Under the pieces are notes generated by a model. The model searched no databases. It had not been told where the DNA came from and worked only from the letters and a program-made list of their open reading frames with translations. Shown piece after piece: positions 3,413-18,505 of a DNA stretch of 64,000 bases; within the stretch, counting starts at the first letter, position 1, and each line of letters opens with the position of its first letter. Source of the DNA: Rhizobiales bacterium TNE-4. Its GTDB lineage: Bacteria; Pseudomonadota; Alphaproteobacteria; Rhizobiales; Beijerinckiaceae. The translations under genes and the position numbers were made by a program. Where the stretch lies: positions 1,240,001 to 1,304,000 of the forward strand of contig JAHRCV010000001.1 of the NCBI GenBank assembly GCA_019083985.1, written 5' to 3'.

Positions 3413-4873
3413 ATGTCTTCGCCTTCAATCGTTTGGTTTCGCGACGATCTCCGCTTAGCGGATCATCCGGCCCTTATCGCTGCCATCGCCCGCAAGGAGC
3501 CGGTTATTCCGGTCTTCATCCTTGATGAAGAGAGCGATGGCATTCGCCCGCTCGGCGGCGCTGTGCGCTGGTGGCTTCACCATTCGCTGACATCCCTTTC
3601 GGAGCAATTGGCTGCCAAGGGCGTCCCGTTGTTAGTCTTTCGCGGGCCGGCTCGGGATGTGATGGCCAGCCTCGCCAAAAAGCTGAAGCCCGGCGCTGTC
3701 TTCTGGAACAGGCGCTATCGGAAGCCGGAAATCGCAGTCGACAGCGCGATCAAGGACGATCTGAAGGCCAAGGGCATTGCTGCCGAGAGCTTCTCGGGCA
3801 CCCTACTTTTTGAGCCTTGGACGGTGAAATCCCAAGCGGGAACACCCATGCGGGTGTTCACCCCCTTCTACCGGGCTGCAACCGCACCCGGCGAACCGGC
3901 TCCGCCTGCCCCCGCCCCCCGTTCGATTCCCGGCCATGACGTGACACCAAAGGCCGCCGGCGCACTCTCCATCGACAAGCTCGCTCTCTTGCCGACCAAG
4001 CCTGATTGGTCGGGCGGCATGCGTGCTGAATGGACACCCGGAGAGAAAGGGGCGCGCAAGCGGCTCGACGTGTTTCTCAAGGGCGGGCTCGCGGGTTACA
4101 AGGAAGGCCGTAATTTTCCCGGCCGTCCCTCAACCTCGAAATTGTCGCCGCATCTGCGCTTTGGCGAAATCTCCGCCCGGCAATGCTGGCATGCCGCCGG
4201 CATCGCGGTTGAAACCGGGCAATCAGACGCGTCCGATTCCGATCTCGCACATTTTCGCAGTGAATTGGGTTGGCGCGAATTCTCCTATCATCTTCTGTTC
4301 AATCTCGACGACATTGCACGTGAGAACATGCAGAAGCGCTTCGACGCATTTCAATGGGCCAAAAATGCGCAGCAATTGCGCGCGTGGCAGCGCGGGCAGA
4401 CGGGCTATCCCATTGTTGACGCTGGCATGCGGGAATTGTGGCAGACAGGTTGGATGCATAACCGCGTCCGGATGATCGTCGGTTCCTTCCTCGTCAAACA
4501 TCTCATGATCGATTGGCGCGAAGGCGAGGATTGGTTCTGGGATACTCTTGTTGACGCGGACATGGCCTCGAATCCTGCGAGCTGGCAGTGGGTCGCTGGC
4601 ACCGGCGCCGATGCCGCGCCTTATTTCCGCGTGTTCAATCCTGTGCTTCAGGGCGAGAAATTCGATCCCGATGGCGCCTATGTGAAGCGTTTTGTGCCCG
4701 AACTGGCCTCGATGCCCCCGAAATACATCCATTCCCCATGGACCGCCCCCGCTTCTGTGTTAAAAGAGGCAGGCGTGAGCTTGGGCTTCGATTACCCCCA
4801 CCCGATGGTCGATCATCAAGCCGCCCGCGACCGTGCGCTCAGCACGTTCGAGGCGCTAAAGGGTGCGGTTTGA
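3413..4873 (+). CDS. phrB: Deoxyribodipyrimidine photolyase (class I CPD type)
   Basis: This 486-residue flavoprotein repairs UV-induced cyclobutane pyrimidine dimers with light energy. The N-terminal alpha/beta domain for the antenna chromophore begins with IVWFRDDLRLADHPAL. The C-terminal FAD domain carries the family landmarks SKLSPHLRFGEIS, TGYPIVDAGMRELWQTGWMH and WFWDTLVDADMASNPASWQW. Length is normal. It is the first gene behind a predicted ECF11-type promoter; the FAD oxidoreductase start lies 25 bp downstream, so genes up to the MFS carrier are probably one operon. In Rhodobacter sphaeroides the orthologue (phrA) is a core member of the sigma-E singlet-oxygen response, which fits the context. 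Confidence 0.95.
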   Translation: MSSPSIVWFRDDLRLADHPALIAAIARKEPVIPVFILDEESDGIRPLGGAVRWWLHHSLTSLSEQLAAKGVPLLVFRGPARDVMASLAKKLKPGAVFWNRRYRKPEIAVDSAIKDDLKAKGIAAESFSGTLLFEPWTVKSQAGTPMRVFTPFYRAATAPGEPAPPAPAPRSIPGHDVTPKAAGALSIDKLALLPTKPDWSGGMRAEWTPGEKGARKRLDVFLKGGLAGYKEGRNFPGRPSTSKLSPHLRFGEISARQCWHAAGIAVETGQSDASDSDLAHFRSELGWREFSYHLLFNLDDIARENMQKRFDAFQWAKNAQQLRAWQRGQTGYPIVDAGMRELWQTGWMHNRVRMIVGSFLVKHLMIDWREGEDWFWDTLVDADMASNPASWQWVAGTGADAAPYFRVFNPVLQGEKFDPDGAYVKRFVPELASMPPKYIHSPWTAPASVLKEAGVSLGFDYPHPMVDHQAARDRALSTFEALKGAV

Positions 4874-4898
4874 CCGCCACAAGGAGTTCGCGTCTACC

Positions 4899-6206
4899 AT
4901 GCGCATTGCCATTATCGGCACCGGGATCGCCGGCAACGCCGCCGCTTATGCTTTAGCGACTGCGTCGCAACATTCGATTACTGTTTATGAGCGCGATCTG
5001 CGCATTGGCGGCCATTCCGCCACGGTCGACATCAATTATGACGGCATGACCATGGCGGTGGACACTGGTTTCATCGTCTATAATGAACTCAACTATCCGA
5101 ACCTGACCGAGCTTTTCCGCACACTCGGTGTGCGCACGCAGGATTCCGATATGAGCTTTTCGCTCTCGGATGATACGCGCGGTGGTTTTGAATGGTGCGG
5201 CCGCACCACGGATGTCTTCAACGGACTTTTCGCGCAGCGGAAAAATCTATTTTCGCCGCGTTATGTGAGAATGCTGTTGGAAGTGCTGCGCTTCAATAAG
5301 CTCGCGATTGCCGACCGCCGGGCGGGAGTGCTCGCTGGCAAGACGCTCGCTGAATATCTCGCCTTCCGCCAATTCTCGGACCGTTTTCGTGATGATTATC
5401 TTGTCCCGATGGGTGCCGCGATTTGGTCGATGTCACTCAATGCGATGCTGCAATTTCCAGCGCAAAGCTTCGTTGCATTTTTCGAAAACCACCATCTCCT
5501 GCAATGGAACCGCCCGGTGTGGCGCACGGTGACGGGTGGCAGCCGGTCCTATGTGAAGCGCATCACGTCGTTCTATCGTGACCATATCCGGACGGGTGCT
5601 GCGGTTGTTTCCGTCAAACGTCTTGTCGATGGTGTTGAAGTGACGGATTCGCTCGGCCATACCGAACGCTATGATCACGCGATCATCGCTGCGCATTCCG
5701 ATGAAGCACTCGCGATGCTCGATGATCCGAGTGCCGATGAGACGTCAATTCTTGGTGCGATCGGCTTTCGCAATAATGCAGTCTATCTCCATCGTGACGA
5801 AAGCTTTATGCCGCGCTCACGCCGCGCTTGGGCTTCGTGGAACGTCAAGCGTGATCCCAATCCCGATGCCGATCTCTGCGTGACCTATTGGATGAATACG
5901 CTGCAGGATTTGCCTGCATCAAAACCGGTTTTTGTGACGCTCAATCCGCCAGTTCCACCACGCGATGAATTGGTTTTCGGCAAATATAATTACGCCCACC
6001 CGCAATATAACGAAGCGGCCATCGCGGCGCAGGCGCGTCTGCCTTCGATCCAGGGCGTGAACCGCACACATTTCGTCGGCGCATGGAACGGTTATGGCTT
6101 CCATGAAGATGGCATCAGTGCCGGTCTTGCCGCCGCCGAAGCGCTCGGCGCGCGCGTTCCGTGGCGCGGTGGCGTTGCGCAGGATTGGGCTGAGGCGGCT
6201 GAATGA
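4899..6206 (+). CDS. FAD-dependent amine-oxidase-like oxidoreductase (fatty-acid modification cluster)
   Basis: A 435-residue flavoprotein. The N-terminus has the Rossmann motif AIIGTGIAGNAAAYALA and the following ERDLRIGGHSATVD, typical of NAD(P)-binding FAD proteins of the amine oxidase/desaturase superfamily. An AAGGAG site about 12 bases before the ATG supports the start. The C-terminus (NGYGFHEDGISAGLAAAEAL) is the usual second FAD contact. It overlaps the DUF1365 gene by four bases. Proteins of this type regularly sit with DUF1365 and Cfa-like genes. In R. sphaeroides the equivalent set belongs to the sigma-E regulon and has been linked to methylated or furan fatty acids; the exact reaction here is inferred. 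Confidence 0.85.
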   Translation: MRIAIIGTGIAGNAAAYALATASQHSITVYERDLRIGGHSATVDINYDGMTMAVDTGFIVYNELNYPNLTELFRTLGVRTQDSDMSFSLSDDTRGGFEWCGRTTDVFNGLFAQRKNLFSPRYVRMLLEVLRFNKLAIADRRAGVLAGKTLAEYLAFRQFSDRFRDDYLVPMGAAIWSMSLNAMLQFPAQSFVAFFENHHLLQWNRPVWRTVTGGSRSYVKRITSFYRDHIRTGAAVVSVKRLVDGVEVTDSLGHTERYDHAIIAAHSDEALAMLDDPSADETSILGAIGFRNNAVYLHRDESFMPRSRRAWASWNVKRDPNPDADLCVTYWMNTLQDLPASKPVFVTLNPPVPPRDELVFGKYNYAHPQYNEAAIAAQARLPSIQGVNRTHFVGAWNGYGFHEDGISAGLAAAEALGARVPWRGGVAQDWAEAAE

Positions 6207-7051
6207 GTGGCACTGCCACAGGCGCGCTCTTCCCGCCGCCCGAGGCGGCGGCAAGCCTCTATGTTGGCGATGTCATGCATGCTCGCATGAAGCCCGTCGC
6301 GCATCGGTTTGTTTATCGCGTGTTCTCGATGCTCTTTAATGCCGATCGGCTCGATGAGGCGGGGCGATTGTCGCCTTTGTTCTCCATCGGGCGTTTCAAC
6401 CTGGTCTCGTTCCACCCCGCTGATCATGGGCCGCGCGATGGGTCATCACTTGGTGATTATGCGCGCCGCGTGCTCGCTTCTGCCGGTGTTGAGACGAACG
6501 GTGCGCGCGTGCTGCTGCTCGCCTATCCCCGCATCCTTGGCTATAGCTTCAACCCACTAACCGTGTATTTCGTCTATGGGCGAAACAACGCGCTGCTGGG
6601 CGTTCTGTACGAAGTGCGCAACACATTTGGCGAATGGCACACCTATGTGGCACCGGTTCAGCCGGGGGAGTTATCGCCGGCCGGATTGCGGCAAGAACGC
6701 AATAAGATCTTCTACGTGTCCCCCTTCAATGATTTGGCCATGCGTTATCTGTTCCGACTCAAGCCACCGGGCGAGAGCGTGACATTACGCATTCTGGAAA
6801 CTGACCGAACCGGCCCCCTTTTGGCGGCAAGTTTTGCCGGGGTTCGGGTGGACTTGACGTCCGCGGCACTTCTGAAAACATGTCTCTCATTGCCGTTCAT
6901 GACGTTGAAGGTCATGGCGGGCATTCACTGGGAGGCGCTGCGTCTCTATATCAAGGGCTTGAGGCTCGTTGCCCGTCCAAAACCGCCGGAGCTCCTCAGC
7001 TTCAGCGATACTGTTGAGGGCGACAAGGCTCATCAAGGAGGCTCCACTTGA
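6203..7051 (+). CDS. DUF1365 family protein
   Basis: A 282-residue soluble-looking protein of the DUF1365 family, recognised from its opening (LYVGDVMHARMKPVAHRFVY), the central YPRILGYSFNPLTVYF block and VRNTFGEWHTY. The ATG overlaps the stop of the FAD oxidoreductase (ATGA), and its own stop overlaps the start of the Cfa-like methyltransferase, so the three are translationally coupled. Members are consistently encoded beside amine-oxidase-like flavoproteins and Cfa-type methyltransferases, which suggests a part in modifying unsaturated phospholipid acyl chains. No catalytic residues are established to my knowledge. Confidence 0.85.
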   Translation: MSGTATGALFPPPEAAASLYVGDVMHARMKPVAHRFVYRVFSMLFNADRLDEAGRLSPLFSIGRFNLVSFHPADHGPRDGSSLGDYARRVLASAGVETNGARVLLLAYPRILGYSFNPLTVYFVYGRNNALLGVLYEVRNTFGEWHTYVAPVQPGELSPAGLRQERNKIFYVSPFNDLAMRYLFRLKPPGESVTLRILETDRTGPLLAASFAGVRVDLTSAALLKTCLSLPFMTLKVMAGIHWEALRLYIKGLRLVARPKPPELLSFSDTVEGDKAHQGGST

Positions 7052-8274
7052 ACGATCAGGTAACCCCCGTTCCCCTGACCGCTGATAATGTTCCGCAAGA
7101 TTTGCCGCCGCTCGTGCGCAAGGCCCTCGCCTATGCCAGCGGGCTAGAAATTGGCACGCTCATCATTCGCCTGCCTGATGGCCGCCGTTTCCTGGCGGGT
7201 GGCAAGGCCCCCGGCCCTGATGCCGAGTTAATTGTGCATGACTTTGCCTTTGCCCAACGCCTGATCCGCGAGGGCGACATCGGCATTGGTGAAGCCTATC
7301 TGGCGAAGGAATGGGACACGCCGGACCTCACAGCCTTCTTGCAGATCTTCGCCGCCAATCACCACATGATTGAGCGGATGGTGCACAACCCCTTCGTGCG
7401 CCTGCTGCAACGCGTGCAACATTGGCTGAACCGCAACACTAAATCTGGGTCACGCCGCAACATCCATGCGCATTATGATCTCGGTAATCGGTTCTATTCG
7501 TCTTGGCTTGACCGGACGATGACCTATTCCTCGGCGCTTTATGCCGAAGGCGATAATGATCTCTCGAGCGCACAGCGTCGCAAATACAAAGCGCTCGCCG
7601 ATGCGATCGATCTCCGCAAGGAGCACCACGTGCTCGAGATCGGATGCGGCTGGGGTGGATTTGCCGAATATGCGGCGGGCGAAATTGGTTGTCGCGTCAC
7701 CGGCCTCACCATCTCGAAAGAGCAATATGATTTCGCCGTCGAACGGATGGCGCGCGCTGGTCTTTCCGATCGCGTGACGATCAAATTGCAGGATTACCGC
7801 GACGAGACCGGTTTTTATGATCGCATCGCCTCCATCGAAATGTTCGAGGCGGTCGGTGAGGAATATTGGCCCGCTTATTTCGAGCAGCTCGCAAAGCGGC
7901 TCAAAGACAATGGCCGGGCCGGATTGCAAGTGATTACGATTCAGGATCGCTTCTTCCAAAGTTACCGGAAAGAGATTGATTTCATCCGTCGTTATATCTT
8001 CCCAGGTGGCATGCTGCCATCGCCGGAAAAAATGGCGGCTCTCGGCCAAACGGTTGGCCTCGCTCTCGAGAAAGAGCGGATTTTCGGTCTCGATTATGCG
8101 CGCACGCTCGCAGAATGGCGCGACCGTTTCCATGCGGCGTGGCCTGATCTCACACCGATGGGATTTGATGAGCGCTTTCGCCGCATGTGGGATTATTACC
8201 TGTCCTATTGCGAAGCGGGCTTCCGCACCGGCAATATCGACGTCCGGCAAATGATCTACACGAAGACAAGTTGA
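7048..8274 (+). CDS. cfa: Cyclopropane-fatty-acyl-phospholipid synthase family methyltransferase
   Basis: A 408-residue SAM-dependent methyltransferase. The SAM-binding motif is VLEIGCGWGGFAEYAA; other Cfa landmarks are AHYDLGNRFYSSWLD, MTYSSALY, SIEMFEAVGEEYW and FIRRYIFPGG. It transfers a methyl or methylene group from SAM to a double bond of membrane phospholipid acyl chains. Translation probably begins at TTG in a TTGA overlap with the DUF1365 stop, preceded by AAGGAGG. Given its neighbours it may be a methylating enzyme (UfaM-like, producing a methyl-branched lipid) rather than a true cyclopropane synthase; sequence alone does not separate these. Confidence 0.92.
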   Translation: MNDQVTPVPLTADNVPQDLPPLVRKALAYASGLEIGTLIIRLPDGRRFLAGGKAPGPDAELIVHDFAFAQRLIREGDIGIGEAYLAKEWDTPDLTAFLQIFAANHHMIERMVHNPFVRLLQRVQHWLNRNTKSGSRRNIHAHYDLGNRFYSSWLDRTMTYSSALYAEGDNDLSSAQRRKYKALADAIDLRKEHHVLEIGCGWGGFAEYAAGEIGCRVTGLTISKEQYDFAVERMARAGLSDRVTIKLQDYRDETGFYDRIASIEMFEAVGEEYWPAYFEQLAKRLKDNGRAGLQVITIQDRFFQSYRKEIDFIRRYIFPGGMLPSPEKMAALGQTVGLALEKERIFGLDYARTLAEWRDRFHAAWPDLTPMGFDERFRRMWDYYLSYCEAGFRTGNIDVRQMIYTKTS

Positions 8275-9602
8275 GCCACAGCGAGCCCCTCTCCCGCGCA
8301 ACGCTCTTCGCCTATGCGGCTCCGGCGTTGCCGCTGGCGATGCTGGCTTTGCCTTTCTACGTGCTCGTGCCCGGCTTTTATGCCGAGACGCTTGGTCTCA
8401 ACATTGCGCTCGTCGGCAGCGTCTTGTTCGGCGTGCGCGTGCTTGATGCGCTGAGCGATCCCGCGGTTGGCATCTTCGCCGATCGGATCAATCCGCGCAT
8501 GGGGCGGCGCCGTTTTCTGTTCGCCCTTGGTACGCCGCTGATCATGCTCGGCGCATGGTTCACCTTCGCTCCGCCACAGGGCGCTGGCGCGGTCTATCTC
8601 GCTTTATGGGCATCGGTTCTCTCGCTTGCGACCACGGTCGTACAAGTGCCCTATGCCGCTTGGGGCGCTGAAATTTCGCGCAGCTATGAAGGGCGCAATC
8701 GTGTCGTCGCGTGGCGCGAAGCGCTCACCGTGACCGGCACATTGATCGCGCTCTGCATGCCCGCCCTTCTGCCCGCCTTCGGCATCACCGATCCGGCGCG
8801 CGTGCTGCAAGCGATTGCGCTTCTGATCGTGATCACCTTGCCGCTCGCCACACTGATCTGTCTGCGCGTACCGGAGCCAATCAATCGCTCGGTCGTCCAA
8901 CTATCCTTCCGCGATAGTTTTGCAGCGCTGGCGGCTAACAAGCCGTTTCTGCGGTTGGTGCTCGCCTTTTTCGTCAATGGTTTTGCCAATGGCCTACCTG
9001 CGACCTTGTTCGTCTTTTTCGTGAGCGAACGGCTGCAGGCGCGTGACATGGTTGGGCCCTTGCTCGTCCTTTATTTCGTTTCCGGCATTGCCGGTGTGCC
9101 GCTTTGGTTCAAGCTCGCGCAGACACGGGCGAAACATCGCGTCTGGTGTCTGGGCATGATGCTCGCCATGGCGGCCTTTGCGTTTGCACCCTTCTTGGGT
9201 GCAGGTGATATCTATGCCTTCGCCATCGTGACGGTGCTGACTGGGCTTGCGCTGGGGGCCGATGTCGTGATGCCCGCCTCGTTACAAGCAGATGTCATTG
9301 ATGTCGATACAGCGCGATCGGGTGAAGAACGCTCTGCGCTCTATCTCTCCCTCTGGGGGCTTGCGACGAAATTGTCGCTGGCAGCAGCGGTCGGCGTCGC
9401 ATTTCCGCTCTTGGCGCTTGCCGGTTTCGATCCCGGCCAAAACATCATCACGCCCTTCGGGCTTGATGCGCTGGCCTTTCTCTATGCGGGTCTGCCGGTG
9501 ATCGTAAAAATCTTTGCCATCGCTTTGATGTGGCGTTTTCCAGTCGATCGGGCGGCGCAGCAAGCGTTGCGCATGCAGATCGAGCAGCGCCTCTCAGCGT
9601 GA
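8271..9602 (+). CDS. MFS transporter of the sugar:cation symporter (GPH) type
   Basis: About 443 residues with roughly twelve hydrophobic segments. The loop DALSDPAVGIFADR between TM2 and TM3 and the INPRMGRRRFLFALGTPL block are typical of the GPH/MelB group of the major facilitator family. The proposed start is TTG inside a TTGA overlap with the cfa stop, matching the junction just upstream; the frame is open further but would then run inside cfa. The substrate is unknown. A carrier of this class also sits in the sigma-E-controlled gene set of R. sphaeroides. The 3' end overlaps the convergent SDR gene by nine bases. Confidence 0.85.
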   Translation: MSHSEPLSRATLFAYAAPALPLAMLALPFYVLVPGFYAETLGLNIALVGSVLFGVRVLDALSDPAVGIFADRINPRMGRRRFLFALGTPLIMLGAWFTFAPPQGAGAVYLALWASVLSLATTVVQVPYAAWGAEISRSYEGRNRVVAWREALTVTGTLIALCMPALLPAFGITDPARVLQAIALLIVITLPLATLICLRVPEPINRSVVQLSFRDSFAALAANKPFLRLVLAFFVNGFANGLPATLFVFFVSERLQARDMVGPLLVLYFVSGIAGVPLWFKLAQTRAKHRVWCLGMMLAMAAFAFAPFLGAGDIYAFAIVTVLTGLALGADVVMPASLQADVIDVDTARSGEERSALYLSLWGLATKLSLAAAVGVAFPLLALAGFDPGQNIITPFGLDALAFLYAGLPVIVKIFAIALMWRFPVDRAAQQALRMQIEQRLSA

Positions 9603-10370
9603 CGCGCCGGTGCCCTTGCCAACGAGCCAGAAATAAGCGGGCCATGGCAGAAGATTAATGGCCTTCAAAAGCCACTTCATCCGGCGCGGAAAGGTGATCT
9701 CGAATCCACCCGTCGCGAAACCATCGCAAATCCGCTTGGCCGCATCGTCAACAGGAATGATGAAAGGCATCGGGTGATCATTCTTCGCCGTCAAGGGTGT
9801 CGCGACGAAGCCGGGGCACACGACCTGCACCGTGATGTTTTTCGGTGTGCAATCAAATTGCAGTGAACCAGCCATATGAATGAGCGCCGCTTTGGTTGCG
9901 CCATAAACGGCCGCGCGTGGCAGCGGACCAAATCCGGCGACAGACGCGTTGATGGCGAGCTGCCCTTTGCCGCGTGCGAGAAAACGCGGCAGCACCGCGT
10001 TCAACCCCGTCAAAACACCATCGATGTTGACATCGAACATCGACTGCCAATCTTTCAACACGAAAGGTTCGATGCTGACGGGCTTGTAGGTGCCGGCATT
10101 CAGAAAAGCGAGACTGATGGGCCCGTGCTCATGCTCGATGCGTTCAACGGCTTTGAGCACACCGTCAGCATCCGTCACGTCGCAGGGGGCAGGAATGATT
10201 GCGCCGGGCTTGGCCTCACGCGCGAGCGCTTCAAGTTCCTCCGCGCGCCGCGCGGACACGGCCACACGAAACCCGCGCGCAACGAGTTCAAGCGCAACCG
10301 CACGCCCGATGCCGGAGCTTGCTCCGGTGATCCAGATAATTCCGTCTTCAGGGCGCGCACGAAAGCTCAT
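9594..10370 (-). CDS. Short-chain dehydrogenase/reductase in the stress cluster
   Basis: A 258-residue SDR with the NAD(P) motif TGASSGIG, the NAG motif in FLNAGTY, an active-site Ser in NASVAGFG and the YGATK catalytic Tyr/Lys pair. The C-terminal stretch (LLKAINLLPWPAYFWLVGKG) is hydrophobic and may contact the membrane. GGAG precedes the chosen ATG. It lies 49 bp downstream of the ChrR-like gene on the same strand and is probably co-transcribed from the predicted sigma-E-type promoter. An SDR is also part of the comparable R. sphaeroides gene set; its substrate is not known from sequence. Confidence 0.88.
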   Translation of the reverse strand: MSFRARPEDGIIWITGASSGIGRAVALELVARGFRVAVSARRAEELEALAREAKPGAIIPAPCDVTDADGVLKAVERIEHEHGPISLAFLNAGTYKPVSIEPFVLKDWQSMFDVNIDGVLTGLNAVLPRFLARGKGQLAINASVAGFGPLPRAAVYGATKAALIHMAGSLQFDCTPKNITVQVVCPGFVATPLTAKNDHPMPFIIPVDDAAKRICDGFATGGFEITFPRRMKWLLKAINLLPWPAYFWLVGKGTGASR

Positions 10371-10419
10371 CGTCAACTCCATTTCGGAGTTTACGGCTTG
10401 TCAGCCCGAATGGATGAGA

Positions 10420-11073
10420 TCAATGCCCGAAAAGGCGCTGCATGATGCGGCCGAACGGGCCAGTCAGACGCAGAGGCGCGTCGGTGACAGCGAAGCAGAC
10501 GCAATCCTCGTCTTCATCCGCACGCGGGCGATGATCGATATCCGAGTCAGCGAACGCGATATCGCCGCGGCGATAATGACCCGACGCGTCCGAGAAGCCG
10601 CCCTTCAACACGAGCGTTACTTCGGTGCCATCATGCGTATGCGACGGCATGATACGACCCGGCTTGATCCAGAGGAGCGAGGCCTCGCCGCCAGACTTCT
10701 CAGCATGGGGCACGTGGAATTCGCGGATACCGGGTAGCACTGTGCGCCACGGCACAGCATCAAGGCGATAACCAATGAAATCGGCGAGCGGCGCCGGGAT
10801 GATCGGATCCGCCTGCGTCTGCGCGCGCGCAGGGCGAACCGGCGCATCGAAAATCGCAGCCAAGCGGCTATCCCGGCCACGAATGGGGGCCGGCGCCGTC
10901 ATTTCCAACTCGCGGGCGTTCAACTCTTCAAGAGCGTCGACGAAGCCGCGATTGTCCGGCTTGATGGCCAAATGGGCGGCGACGAGGCCGTGCAAGGCAG
11001 GCGATAGCTGACCGGACGCATATTGCGCCATGAGGGCATCGATCGGGTGGGCAGCTTGGTCTTCGAGGCGCAT
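10420..11073 (-). CDS. chrR: ChrR-like zinc/cupin regulator lacking the anti-sigma CxxC
   Basis: With the start used here the protein has 217 residues, close to the 213 of R. sphaeroides ChrR, the zinc anti-sigma factor that releases RpoE on singlet oxygen. The C-terminal cupin keeps all expected zinc ligands (His145, His147, Glu151, His181, each four residues beyond those of ChrR) and the Cys191/Cys193 pair. The N-terminal anti-sigma domain aligns with an offset of three (His9, His34), but the two zinc cysteines are replaced by Lys38 and Asn41 (AHLAIKPDNR versus the usual HLxLCxxCR). No ECF sigma gene is adjacent. An in-frame ATG at 11118 is a possible earlier start, but it lies within a few bases of the expected transcription start. 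It may be a paralogue that senses through the cupin but cannot hold sigma in the normal way. Confidence 0.85.
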   Translation of the reverse strand: MRLEDQAAHPIDALMAQYASGQLSPALHGLVAAHLAIKPDNRGFVDALEELNARELEMTAPAPIRGRDSRLAAIFDAPVRPARAQTQADPIIPAPLADFIGYRLDAVPWRTVLPGIREFHVPHAEKSGGEASLLWIKPGRIMPSHTHDGTEVTLVLKGGFSDASGHYRRGDIAFADSDIDHRPRADEDEDCVCFAVTDAPLRLTGPFGRIMQRLFGH

Positions 11074-11128: not shown

Positions 11129-11154
11129 TACGGGGTTAAATCCGGGTTGGATCA
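11129..11154 (-). promoter_or_regulatory. Predicted sigma-E (ECF11-type) promoter of the chrR-like gene
   Basis: Read on the minus strand, TGATCC (11154-11149) is followed by 16 bases and CGTA (11132-11129). This is the same pair of boxes with the same spacing as before the photolyase gene. Transcription would begin about 50 bases before the preferred chrR-like start. The divergent location lets one sigma factor drive both parts of the cluster. Confidence 0.7.
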
Positions 11155-11358
11155 CCCTGTATGAGCGAGACTCGCGTGAAACTCATTCTTGTCCGCTTAA
11201 CAGAAACGACTATCCGTAGTTTTACGAGGTGCGGCGTGCCCGTTTGTCGCAAGACGAAGGTGTGATCCTCCCGACCCATGCCGACCGGCGCGGCTTGCCT
11301 GCCCAGCGGTGCTTCTTTAGCGTCGCAGGACTTGGAAATACCTCCCCGGAGCCTGCTG

Positions 11359-12072
11359 ATGCCGACCGCCCTCCTCTTTCGTGACGATGCCTATCTCAAG
11401 GAGACGGAGGCCACAGTTCTTGGGATCAATGAGCGGGGCGGCATCCTGCTCGACCGAACTGTCTTTTACGCGACGGGTGGCGGCCAGCCCGGCGATGCCG
11501 GTGTGCTGGTGACCGCGTCGGGCCAGCCCATCCCGATCGCCACCACGGTCTACGGCGCCGACAAGAGCGAAATCGTCCATGTCCCCGCCGAAGGCGCCAC
11601 CCTTCCCGCTCCCGGTGATGTGGTCACCGCCAAGCTCGATTGGGACACACGCCTCAAGCGGATGCGGATCCACACAGCGCTTCATCTCCTGACGACGGTG
11701 TTGCCCTACCCCGTCACGGGTGGCGCCATTGGTGATGGCGAGGGGCGTCTCGATTTCGACATTCCTGACGGGGGGCTTGAGAAGGAGGCGATCACGGCCG
11801 AGCTCATGCGCCGCATTAACCAGAACGCCGAAGTGACTGAGCAATGGATCACCGACGAAGAGCTTGAGGCCAATCCCGGGCTTGTCAAAACCATGTCGGT
11901 CAAGCCGCCGATGGGCACGGGCCGCGTCCGCCTCGTCAACATTGTGGGCCTCGACCTCCAGCCCTGTGGCGGCACACATGTAAAAAACACGCGCGAAATT
12001 GGTGAGGTCGCTGTCACCAATATCGAGAAAAAAGGCAAACAAAACCGCCGCGTCCGCATCGCGCTGGTGTGA
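11359..12072 (+). CDS. alaX: Alanyl-tRNA editing protein (AlaX type)
   Basis: A free-standing relative of the AlaRS editing domain, about 237 residues, which hydrolyses mischarged Ser- or Gly-tRNA(Ala). The catalytic zinc site shows as HTALH (HxxxH) in the middle and CGGTH near the C-terminus; the N-terminal half has the GGGQPGDAG motif of the AlaX/AlaRS family. The frame stays open upstream to 11278, but family members begin about at MPTALLF, so that Met is used. The next gene (sulfurtransferase) starts 15 bp downstream and is probably co-transcribed. Confidence 0.9.
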   Translation: MPTALLFRDDAYLKETEATVLGINERGGILLDRTVFYATGGGQPGDAGVLVTASGQPIPIATTVYGADKSEIVHVPAEGATLPAPGDVVTAKLDWDTRLKRMRIHTALHLLTTVLPYPVTGGAIGDGEGRLDFDIPDGGLEKEAITAELMRRINQNAEVTEQWITDEELEANPGLVKTMSVKPPMGTGRVRLVNIVGLDLQPCGGTHVKNTREIGEVAVTNIEKKGKQNRRVRIALV

Positions 12073-16296: not shown

Positions 16297-17319
16297 TTAG
16301 CGGATCGGCGGAGCGTATTGCAGGCCGCCCTTTGTCCACAAATTGTTCTTGCCGCGCTCGATCTTCAGCGGCGAACCCATGCCGACATTACGCTCGAAGA
16401 CCTCGCCGTAATTGCCAACATTCTTAACGATGCGGACGACCCAATCATTGGAGACGCCAATCATTTCGCCGAACTTGCCTTCGGTGCCGAGGAGACGCTT
16501 GATCTCCGGGTTATCCGACTTCAGCATCTGGTCGACATTGGCCTGCGTCACGCCGAGTTCTTCAGCGTTCAGCATGGCGTAGTGGACCCACTTCACAAGG
16601 TCGAACCACTGGTCGTCACCGTGACGCACGGATGCCGCGAGCGGCTCCTTCGAGATGATTTCCGGCAGGATCATGTGATCGTCCGGCTTGGCGAACTTCA
16701 AGCGCTCGGCGAACAAACCCGACGCGTCGGTCGTGAACACGTCGCAGCGGCCTGCTTCATAAGCCTTGATCGTTTCGTCATTGGTGACGAACGCCACGAC
16801 TTCATACTTCATCTTATTGGCGCGGAAATAGTCGGCGAGGTTGAGTTCGGTCGTCGTGCCCTGCTGCGTGCAGACAGAGGCGCCGTTCAATTCAAGTGCC
16901 GATTTGATGTTCATGGATTTGCGCACCATGAAGCCCTGGCCATCATAATAGTTGATGCCCGCGAAGTTTAGACCGAGCGAGGTATCACGCGACATGGTCC
17001 ATGTCGTGGTGCGGATCAGCACGTCGATTTCGCCGGACTGCAACGCCGTGAAGCGATCCTTGGCGGTCAGCGAGACCGTCTTGACCTTCATCGGGTCGTT
17101 CAGGATGGCGGCTGCGATCGCGCGGCAATAATCGATGTCGATGCCCTTCCAGACACCCTTTTCGTCGGGCATGCCGAAGCCCGCAATGCCGAGACCTGTG
17201 CCGCAGATGACCTGGCCGCGTTCCTTCACTTTTTGCAGAACGCCTTGCGCCGATGCAGCACCGACCGTCAGGCCGAGCGCAGCGATACCGAATGCCGCTG
17301 CTTTCAAAATGGACTTCAT
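16297..17319 (-). CDS. aapJ: General L-amino-acid ABC transporter, periplasmic binding protein (second copy)
   Basis: A 340-residue periplasmic protein with a signal peptide (MKSILKAAAFGIAALGLTVG, cleavage near ASAQ) and the solute-binding family 3 fold. It is clearly paralogous to the preceding gene along its whole length (shared blocks such as ASVCTQQGTTTELNLADYF and LKSDNPEIKRLLGTEG). The ATG has GAGGGGAAC just upstream; longer frames have no such site. It captures amino acids for AapQMP. Probably expressed both by readthrough and from its own upstream region. Confidence 0.93.
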   Translation of the reverse strand: MKSILKAAAFGIAALGLTVGAASAQGVLQKVKERGQVICGTGLGIAGFGMPDEKGVWKGIDIDYCRAIAAAILNDPMKVKTVSLTAKDRFTALQSGEIDVLIRTTTWTMSRDTSLGLNFAGINYYDGQGFMVRKSMNIKSALELNGASVCTQQGTTTELNLADYFRANKMKYEVVAFVTNDETIKAYEAGRCDVFTTDASGLFAERLKFAKPDDHMILPEIISKEPLAASVRHGDDQWFDLVKWVHYAMLNAEELGVTQANVDQMLKSDNPEIKRLLGTEGKFGEMIGVSNDWVVRIVKNVGNYGEVFERNVGMGSPLKIERGKNNLWTKGGLQYAPPIR

Positions 17320-17453
17320 GATGTTCCCCTCGTCGAATGCGGGATAATCCGCAACACGTTTGCCGCGTTTATAGGCAGTTTCTAACCAAAACACAGAGCC
17401 GTTCAAAGTCTAGCAAAAACCATACTCAGAAACCCTGCGCCCCCCAAAAGAAA

Positions 17454-17488: not shown

Positions 17489-18505
17489 TTAGCGGATCGG
17501 CGGAGCGTATTGCAGACCACCCTTCGACCAAAGCGCGTTCAGGCCGCGCTTGATCTTGAGCGGCGAGCCTTCGCCGACGTTACGCTCAAAGCTTTCGCCG
17601 TAATTGCCGACATTCTTGACGATGCGGACGACCCAGTCATTCGACAGGCCGATCATTTCGCCAAACTTGCCTTCGGTGCCGAGGAGACGCTTGATCTCCG
17701 GGTTATCCGACTTCAGCATCTGGTCGAGATTGGCCTGCGTCACGCCGAGTTCTTCGGCATTGACCATGGCGTAGAGCACCCACTTCACGAGGTCGAACCA
17801 CTGGTCGTCACCGTGACGCACGGCTGGGCCGAGCGGCTCCTTCGAGATGATTTCCGGCAGAACGATGTGATCAGCCGGGTTCGTCAGCTTGAGGCGCTCA
17901 GCATAGAGGCCCGAAGCGTCAGTGGTGAACGCATCGCAACGGCCGGCATCATACGCCTTGATGGTTTCGTCCGAGGTCGCGAACGCCACGACTTCGTACT
18001 TCATCTTGTTGGCGCGGAAGAAGTCGGCAAGGTTCAGTTCGGTCGTCGTGCCCTGCTGCGTGCAGACCGACGCGCCGTTCAACTCGAGCGCCGAGGAGAC
18101 GCCGAGCTTCTTGCGGACCATGAAGCCCTGGCCGTCATAGTAGTTGATGCCCGTGAAGTTTAGGCCGAGCGAGGTATCGCGCGACATCGTCCAGGTCGAG
18201 TTGCGGACGAGCACGTCCACTTCACCCGATTGCAGAGCCGTGAAGCGATCCTTCGACGAGAGCGGAACAAACTTTACCTTCGTCGCGTCGTTGAAAATGG
18301 CGGCCGCAATGGCGCGGCACACATCGACGTCGAGGCCCTTCCAGACCCCCTTGTCATCCGGCGCACCGAAGCCGGCGAGGCCCGTGTTCGAGCCGCAGGT
18401 CAACTGACCCTTGTTCTTGACGTTGTTGAGGGTCTGCGCCGACACAGCCGAGGCCGCGAAAATCGCGGCAGCGCCGAGCGCGATCGATACAATCGTCTTT
18501 TTCAT
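17489..18505 (-). CDS. aapJ: General L-amino-acid ABC transporter, periplasmic binding protein (first copy)
   Basis: A 338-residue binding protein with signal peptide (KKTIVSIALGAAAIFAASAV, then SAQ) and the solute-binding family 3 fold. It shares long near-identical stretches with the adjacent paralogue, including the final KGGLQYAPPIR. The two differ mainly in the signal peptide and around the N-terminal and C-terminal thirds. First gene of the cluster; its promoter should lie in the 203-bp gap shared with the divergent cystathionine beta-lyase gene. Confidence 0.93.
   Translation of the reverse strand: MKKTIVSIALGAAAIFAASAVSAQTLNNVKNKGQLTCGSNTGLAGFGAPDDKGVWKGLDVDVCRAIAAAIFNDATKVKFVPLSSKDRFTALQSGEVDVLVRNSTWTMSRDTSLGLNFTGINYYDGQGFMVRKKLGVSSALELNGASVCTQQGTTTELNLADFFRANKMKYEVVAFATSDETIKAYDAGRCDAFTTDASGLYAERLKLTNPADHIVLPEIISKEPLGPAVRHGDDQWFDLVKWVLYAMVNAEELGVTQANLDQMLKSDNPEIKRLLGTEGKFGEMIGLSNDWVVRIVKNVGNYGESFERNVGEGSPLKIKRGLNALWSKGGLQYAPPIR

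Follow-up and report, generated by a model that had tools for sequence, protein, structure and literature searches.

How can a protein built like the anti-sigma factor ChrR control a sigma factor when the zinc cysteines are missing from its anti-sigma domain and no sigma gene lies beside its own? This question is raised by a chrR-type gene in a 64,000-nucleotide stretch of the genome of Rhizobiales bacterium TNE-4 (the window). Passages of a review state that sigma inhibition by R. sphaeroides ChrR requires zinc (PMC6852236), and a study of N. meningitidis MseR reports that the cysteines of its zinc-binding anti-sigma (ZAS) domain are needed (PMC2893595). A preliminary description of the locus had offered a decoy, a sensor or lipid/redox-binding cupin, or a zinc-independent anti-sigma factor as possible identities for the protein.

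A ChrR-type protein with an altered zinc site

The chrR frame is intact in the window, with its ATG at 11073, and the product scores 165.9 bits over residues 9-216 against TIGR02451, the profile of the ChrR family anti-sigma factors (cut-off 124.5). Pfam detects a Cupin_7 domain, and the best PDB match is R. sphaeroides ChrR (2z2s_B, 1.1e-41). The profile score and the PDB match bear out the original assignment of the gene as a ChrR homologue. Against the NCBI equivalog NF051881 (cadmium/peroxide/UV responsive ChrR) the protein scores 127.3 bits, below the cut-off of 300. The gene and its parts are:

10420..11073, minus strand: chrR-type gene for a 217-aa protein with an anti-sigma and a cupin domain (TIGR02451, Cupin_7, PDB 2z2s_B)
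10900..11046, minus strand: anti-sigma domain, predicted three-helix bundle, residues 10-58 (predicted helices 10-20, 25-37 and 39-58)
10951..10962, minus strand: codons 38-41, Lys38-Pro-Asp-Asn41, in place of R. sphaeroides Cys35/Cys38 (alignment)
10846..10875, minus strand: predicted helix 4, residues 67-76 (structure model)
10459..10794, minus strand: cupin domain, about residues 94-205, with His145, His147, Glu151, His181, Cys191 and Cys193 (Pfam, PDB alignment, model)

In the PDB alignment His9 and His34 fall on R. sphaeroides His6 and His31, Lys38 and Asn41 fall on Cys35 and Cys38, and the six cupin residues listed above align with R. sphaeroides cupin residues and are all kept. The numbering register, the two substitutions and the retained cupin ligands were thus described correctly at the outset. 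The match of both histidines also stands as an alignment, but His9 is not a conserved residue, being His in 3 of the 45 sigma-unlinked relatives described below. The ZAS motif, His-X3-Cys-X2-Cys with a fourth His/Cys ligand, is absent from the window protein, which reads His34-Leu-Ala-Ile-Lys38-Pro-Asp-Asn41, and the protein is therefore not classed as a ZAS protein.

As had been described, no sigma gene adjoins chrR, either in the window or in the fetched flank. A genome-wide search of the 98.8% complete assembly of 17 contigs found no second ChrR; two other Cupin_7 matches considered for that role, ORFs of 177 and 149 aa, were read as plain cupins. The genes around chrR are given here with their occurrence among the best 80 of 252 named loci, many of which are short:

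3413..4873, plus strand: DNA photolyase (phr) gene (Pfam DNA_photolyase, FAD_binding_7; 42/80 loci)
4863..6206, plus strand: FAD-dependent amine-oxidase-like protein (Pfam Amino_oxidase; 46/80)
6203..7051, plus strand: DUF1365 protein (Pfam DUF1365; 47/80)
7048..8274, plus strand: cyclopropane-fatty-acid-synthase-like methyltransferase, CFA (Pfam CMAS; 58/80)
8187..9602, plus strand: MFS_2 transporter ORF, final gene of the same-strand run, true start probably later (Pfam MFS_2; 30/80)
9594..10382, minus strand: short-chain dehydrogenase/reductase (SDR) gene, 37 nt downstream of chrR (Pfam adh_short; 65/80)
11278-12072, divergent from chrR: AlaXM-like protein for alanyl-tRNA editing (201.7 bits, short of the 300 bits of the equivalog cut-off; AlaX in 46/80)

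The SDR gene is probably co-transcribed with chrR. We take the FAD and DUF1365 genes of the window to be counterparts of genes described in a paper that also covers Rhizobium etli CIAT 652. Passages of that paper describe rpoE as missing near the chrR homologue of this strain, so a chrR apart from rpoE is already in print. Elsewhere in the window, at 16297-17406 and 17489-18505, lie tandem genes whose products are 82% identical over 313 residues and presumably are the binding protein of an amino-acid ABC transporter.

Loss of the zinc cysteines across a conserved clade

We refer to a chrR gene as linked when an ECF11-type sigma match lies within about 1.5-4 kb of it, and as split when it is sigma-unlinked. 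Within a family set of 149 genomes, 70 have a ChrR match and 67 of these allow both the anti-sigma domain and the linkage to be read. The matches in G016 and G137 are cupin fragments and were uncounted; G025 stops at a contig edge and so lies outside the 45 split ChrRs and inside the 46 split sigma factors. The 67 readable proteins comprise 45 that are split and 22 encoded directly beside an ECF11-type sigma gene.

Both zinc cysteines are missing from every one of the 45 split ChrRs. Among the 22 linked proteins the full His-His-Cys-Cys set is present in 14 and incomplete in 8. The split proteins have Arg, Lys, Ser, Asn or Thr at position 38, Asn, Ser or Gly at position 41, and a variable residue at position 9; His34, kept in 45/45, is the sole one of the four zinc ligands that is conserved in the clade. 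Residues 9-60 contain no cysteine at all in 33 of the 45. Helix 4 retains Leu71 in 45/45, Ile74 in 44/45 and Arg67 in 43/45. One split ChrR (G037, L090 4001-4609) has seemingly lost cupin metal ligands, reading AGEW, or CLEQ in the 180-row alignment, though its alignment is unsure; a split ECF11-type sigma (L109) is nonetheless encoded in G037.

A scan of named genomes gave 252 relatives, the best 80 of which were analyzed, so that this sample is mostly one clade and several of its flanks are short. Among them are Alsobacter, Salinarimonas, Bosea, Pannonibacter, Stappia and Roseibium as well as many Hyphomicrobiales or Beijerinckiaceae metagenome bins; Stappia, Salinarimonas and Alsobacter represent three different families of Hyphomicrobiales. 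In all 80 both zinc cysteines are missing and His34 and the six cupin residues are kept, and in none do the available flanks, several of them short, hold a sigma gene. The window ChrR is a member of a large conserved clade and not a single-genome oddity.

An unlinked ECF11-type sigma factor accompanies the split ChrR

Profile searches place Sigma70_r2 matches at seven positions in the TNE-4 genome. An ECF11-type sigma gene, whose product has R. sphaeroides RpoE as its best PDB match (1.4e-48), lies on a different contig from chrR (G000:C2:381823-382476, minus strand). Two other short ECF-like sigma factors were considered as the partner and set aside; the best PDB match of both is 5uxx, with R. 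sphaeroides RpoE scoring weaker. The search of the rest of the genome for rpoE-chrR that had been proposed at the outset thus yields an ECF11-type sigma gene on this second contig and no second ChrR, and the initial implication that the protein has no partner does not hold, the sigma gene having a conserved address beside an ialB-like gene. This ialB-like gene is divergent, and a quinone-oxidoreductase-like gene follows the sigma gene directly. The ialB-like, quinone-oxidoreductase-like and rlmN genes at sigma loci are presumed to be such from their sequences.

By hand tally over the 149 family genomes, 44 have both a split ChrR and a split sigma, 1 (73% complete) has the split ChrR without a split sigma and 2 (83% and 97% complete) have the split sigma without a split ChrR. 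Neither is found in 102, and 22 of those have a linked pair. In G123 the sigma gene is cut short by a contig end; it was scored as present in this tally and is left out of the later sigma set. The split sigma matches of G068 and G095 have one stop codon inside the matched stretch; in G068 (L050) the sigma frame restarts just 5' of the conserved part. In the sigma tree the 45 split sigma factors (without the contig-end G025) form one side of a single branch. Their neighborhoods are likewise shared: the ialB-like gene is divergent in 44/45, and the fetched stretches hold rlmN in 26 and the quinone oxidoreductase in 16. ECF11-type sigma genes near ialB-like and rlmN genes are also seen beyond the family (L125 3998-6808; L352-L364, L366).

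ECF11-type promoter motifs before chrR

We take TGATCC-N16-CGTA to be the ECF11 promoter motif, an identity that fits its position before the sigma gene in linked pairs (17/22 in the family and 72/113 at class level). A motif search of the window finds two such sites:

11129..11154, minus strand: ECF11-type promoter TGATCC-N16-CGTA, with its first base 81 nt upstream of the chrR start codon
3360..3385, plus strand: another promoter of the ECF11 type, TGATCC-N16-CGTA, upstream of the photolyase operon

For TGATCC-N15-17-CGTA the window holds 2 sites against 0.30 expected, a number that 4 of 100 shuffles reach. The motif occurs 14 times in the whole genome and its reversed pattern 4 times. The motif sites upstream of the photolyase operon, chrR and an rpoH-like gene look convincing, and most of the others lie inside ORFs. 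The site at G000:C3:66952-66977 (L348) is directly 5' of the gene that we take to be rpoH-like, the product of which matches Sigma70_r2. On this sequence evidence, TNE-4 may have retained a sigmaE-to-RpoH cascade.

The motif, searched with a looser pattern, lies upstream of 39 of the 45 split family chrR genes (absent in 6), and it lies upstream of 67 of the best 80 of the 252 named ones (absent in 13). Before the split sigma genes it is found in 0/46. At linked class loci it precedes chrR in 3/113. With no motif before the split sigma and one before the split chrR, the split circuit would therefore lack sigma self-induction and retain induction of the brake. A missing motif before sigma is not peculiar to the split genes, being seen also in 5/22 linked family pairs and 41/113 linked class pairs.

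Constraint and predicted fold of the anti-sigma domain

Across 15 pairs of close relatives pN/pS, which is a relative measure only with synonymous sites near saturation in many pairs, ranges from 0.08 to 0.36 in helices 1-3, 0.16 to 1.27 in the linker, 0.05 to 0.41 in helix 4 and 0.05 to 0.26 in the cupin domain. Helix 4 is by this measure under weaker constraint, and in some pairs the linker is hardly looser than the helices. Passages of PMC6852236 describe helix IV of ChrR as contacting sigma region 2.

A single-chain AlphaFold2 model of the window protein, built with 50 relatives, has a mean pLDDT of 88.9. The three-helix bundle is predicted with confidence to form without zinc ligands; between residues 11 and 50 the pLDDT block means are 93-97. 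The closest solved fold to the model is that of ChrR (2q1z; Z 19.8, rmsd 2.6 Å over 177 residues), and the entries ranked below ChrR in the VIA-align list mostly cover the cupin part. The predicted order, an anti-sigma helical bundle and helix 4 followed by the cupin domain, is the ChrR family architecture. Constraint and model together point to an anti-sigma domain that is maintained and foldable.

Zinc loss also occurs in linked pairs

A search across the Alphaproteobacteria gave matches in 199 of 385 genomes, 135 of them over the cut-off. We sampled 130 class loci, comprising the 30 best and 100 others; the sample leans to high scores, and G184 and G330 are under the cut-off. Linked loci make up 113 of the 130, and from these the window chrR differs in having its sigma on another contig. 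Both cysteines are present in 91 of the linked loci and one or both are missing in 22; the 17 split loci divide into 11 with both cysteines and 6 without. A general rule that splitting from sigma equals zinc loss was considered and rejected on these counts. Splitting and zinc loss are separable.

Pooling the class and family sets (113 and 22) gives 135 linked ChrRs, with both cysteines in 105 and one or both missing in 30, of which 25 have neither and 5 have one left. In eight linked ChrRs, neither His nor Cys occupies even one of the four ligand places. His9 is present in 105/105 linked ChrRs with the cysteines versus 2/30 without, and the zinc ligands therefore tend to be lost together; His34 is replaced in 10 of these 30. 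The cupin ligands His-His-Glu-His are found in 179 of the 180 ChrRs read. The cupin-domain tree of 199 rows is poorly resolved, with 91 of 196 inner branches open, and on it the zinc state requires 20 changes, 3 of them forced by well-supported branches (15 and 5 on a linked-only tree). The chrR-SDR arrangement requires 11 changes, 4 of them forced, so the chrR-SDR loci may or may not share one origin.

The 17 split class chrR loci have their own motif in 11 cases and an SDR gene in 12. An ECF11-type sigma is found in 16 of these 17 genomes, in some beside another chrR copy. At 17 sigma loci from these genomes the strict motif is found before sigma in none, with a one-letter variant in L365, and ialB and rlmN each adjoin sigma in 14. 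The ialB gene also lies near 33 of the 113 linked class pairs, so it may be chrR that has changed its place in the genome, with the sigma gene staying put. Six split chrR genes in other families (L236, L254, L289, L292, L305 and L307) combine all four zinc ligands with an ECF11-type promoter and an SDR neighbor.

Discussion

We consider it probable, at about 0.82, that the window protein is a ChrR-type anti-sigma factor that silences an unlinked ECF11 sigma without zinc in its anti-sigma domain, as part of a rewired circuit. Sequence, promoter motifs, synteny, co-occurrence, constraint and the predicted fold are the directly seen elements on which this builds; sigma binding, the absence of zinc, the signal, the release and promoter activity are what we infer from them. 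From the options first put forward, the zinc-independent anti-sigma factor fits best with the co-occurrence, the promoter, the constraint and the losses in linked pairs, and a decoy or free sensor fits poorly.

In the mechanism that we propose, ChrR would bind and silence an RpoE-like ECF11 sigma encoded elsewhere in the genome, its three-helix bundle presumably stabilized, in the manner of E. coli RseA, by polar contacts together with a hydrophobic core, with the metal-binding cupin domain retained as the sensory part. On stress, which by analogy may be singlet oxygen or organic peroxide, ChrR would presumably be degraded, and the freed sigma would then transcribe the photolyase/FAD/DUF1365/cyclopropane-synthase operon, the rpoH-like gene and chrR-SDR. 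Newly made ChrR would shut the sigma off again. Because the sigma gene has no promoter motif, the loop on the pair would be negative only, unlike that of a self-induced rpoE-chrR operon.

The window protein is like ChrR of the R. sphaeroides ChrR/sigmaE system (ECF11; PDB 2Q1Z, 2Z2S) in its two-domain architecture, predicted fold, cupin ligands and both late cysteines, and its genome likewise encodes an RpoE-like sigma. It differs in lacking the zinc cysteines and in the unconserved His6 position of its clade, and its gene, in contrast to that of the R. sphaeroides rpoE-chrR operon, is split from sigma and has an ECF11-type promoter of its own, with none before sigma. Counterparts in respect of the zinc site are the cysteine-deficient linked ChrRs of the Alphaproteobacteria (30/135), which belong to the same family, keep the cupin ligands and have largely lost the zinc ligands together. 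Unlike the window gene these directly adjoin a sigma gene, and in 12 of 22 class cases the promoter lies upstream of sigma.

Zinc-free anti-sigma domains are already known in other groups. Examples are E. coli RseA and M. tuberculosis RskA, from other ECF groups; the window protein, a ChrR, differs from both in having a cupin domain. According to passages of PMC7406223 and PMC6852236 these class I proteins inhibit an ECF sigma through a helical domain without a zinc motif, and in RseA protein contacts replace the metal (passages of PMC6852236). Bacillus subtilis RsiW is described, in passages of PMC5358783, as binding SigW also in its zinc-free state; RsiW retains a CHCC motif, whereas in the window ChrR the motif is gone from the sequence. 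Zinc-containing and zinc-free anti-sigma domains are mixed within some groups, AS27 and AS19-1, according to passages of PMC7406223, and these passages do not name AS11, the ChrR group, as mixed. In passages of the open-licence literature we recognized no description of a ChrR that lacks the zinc site.

The anti-sigma domain might instead no longer bind sigma. The protein would then be a decoy, or a cupin acting on its own as sensor or enzyme, and control of the ECF11 sigma would be exerted in some other way. The loss of both zinc cysteines and the separation of the gene from sigma are in keeping with this idea, as is the zinc requirement of the one well-studied ChrR (passages of PMC6852236). 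It is difficult to reconcile with the continued constraint on the anti-sigma helices, the joint presence of sigma and ChrR in 44 out of 47 genomes with at least one of the two split genes, the sigma-type promoter before chrR, the same cysteine loss in linked ChrRs, and the failure to find a second ChrR in a 98.8% complete genome, and we regard it as unlikely. A different objection concerns the metal itself: His34, kept in 45/45 split family ChrRs and in 80/80 named relatives (the best 80 of 252), could be the center of an altered set of ligands through which the domain still binds zinc or another metal. This seems very improbable to us given that positions 9, 38 and 41 are variable, that 33/45 proteins are cysteine-free over residues 9-60 and that His34 is itself replaced in 10/30 linked ChrRs without the cysteines; the conservation of His34 is nonetheless a counterpoint to a zinc-free reading, and this residue may have a metal-binding or other role. 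A sequencing or assembly error at codons 38-41, a concern of the preliminary description, or a decaying gene hardly deserves consideration, for although a single sequence from a draft genome of 17 contigs is at issue, relatives at 87% and 86% identity share Lys and Asn, similar substitutions occur clade-wide, the frames are intact and the domain is constrained.

If the window protein is a zinc-independent anti-sigma factor, it bears on how ChrR senses stress. According to passages of a review, it is unknown what exactly the anti-sigma zinc contributes to the singlet-oxygen response of ChrR (PMC6852236), and passages of a model-peptide study propose that ChrR cysteines may sense singlet oxygen (PMC6432622). 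We lean, somewhat beyond even odds, towards the view that ChrR has shed its zinc site several times with sigma control and the cupin sensor kept, such that the zinc finger would not be an obligatory singlet-oxygen sensor, and that in one Hyphomicrobiales clade this goes along with a rewired circuit, whose sigma factor switches on its targets and its brake but not its own gene. Natural ChrRs without the zinc site, from more than one lineage and with the cupin ligands kept in 179/180, offer ready tests of the zinc finger versus the cupin as sensor, and the split circuit allows the self-induced control of a stress sigma to be compared, in nature, with control in which only the brake is induced. 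Zinc-independent ChrRs might also serve as anti-sigma parts in synthetic circuits. For these bacteria, the loss of the zinc site with the rest of the circuit kept suggests that the zinc is dispensable, which bears on how light-driven oxygen damage is sensed.
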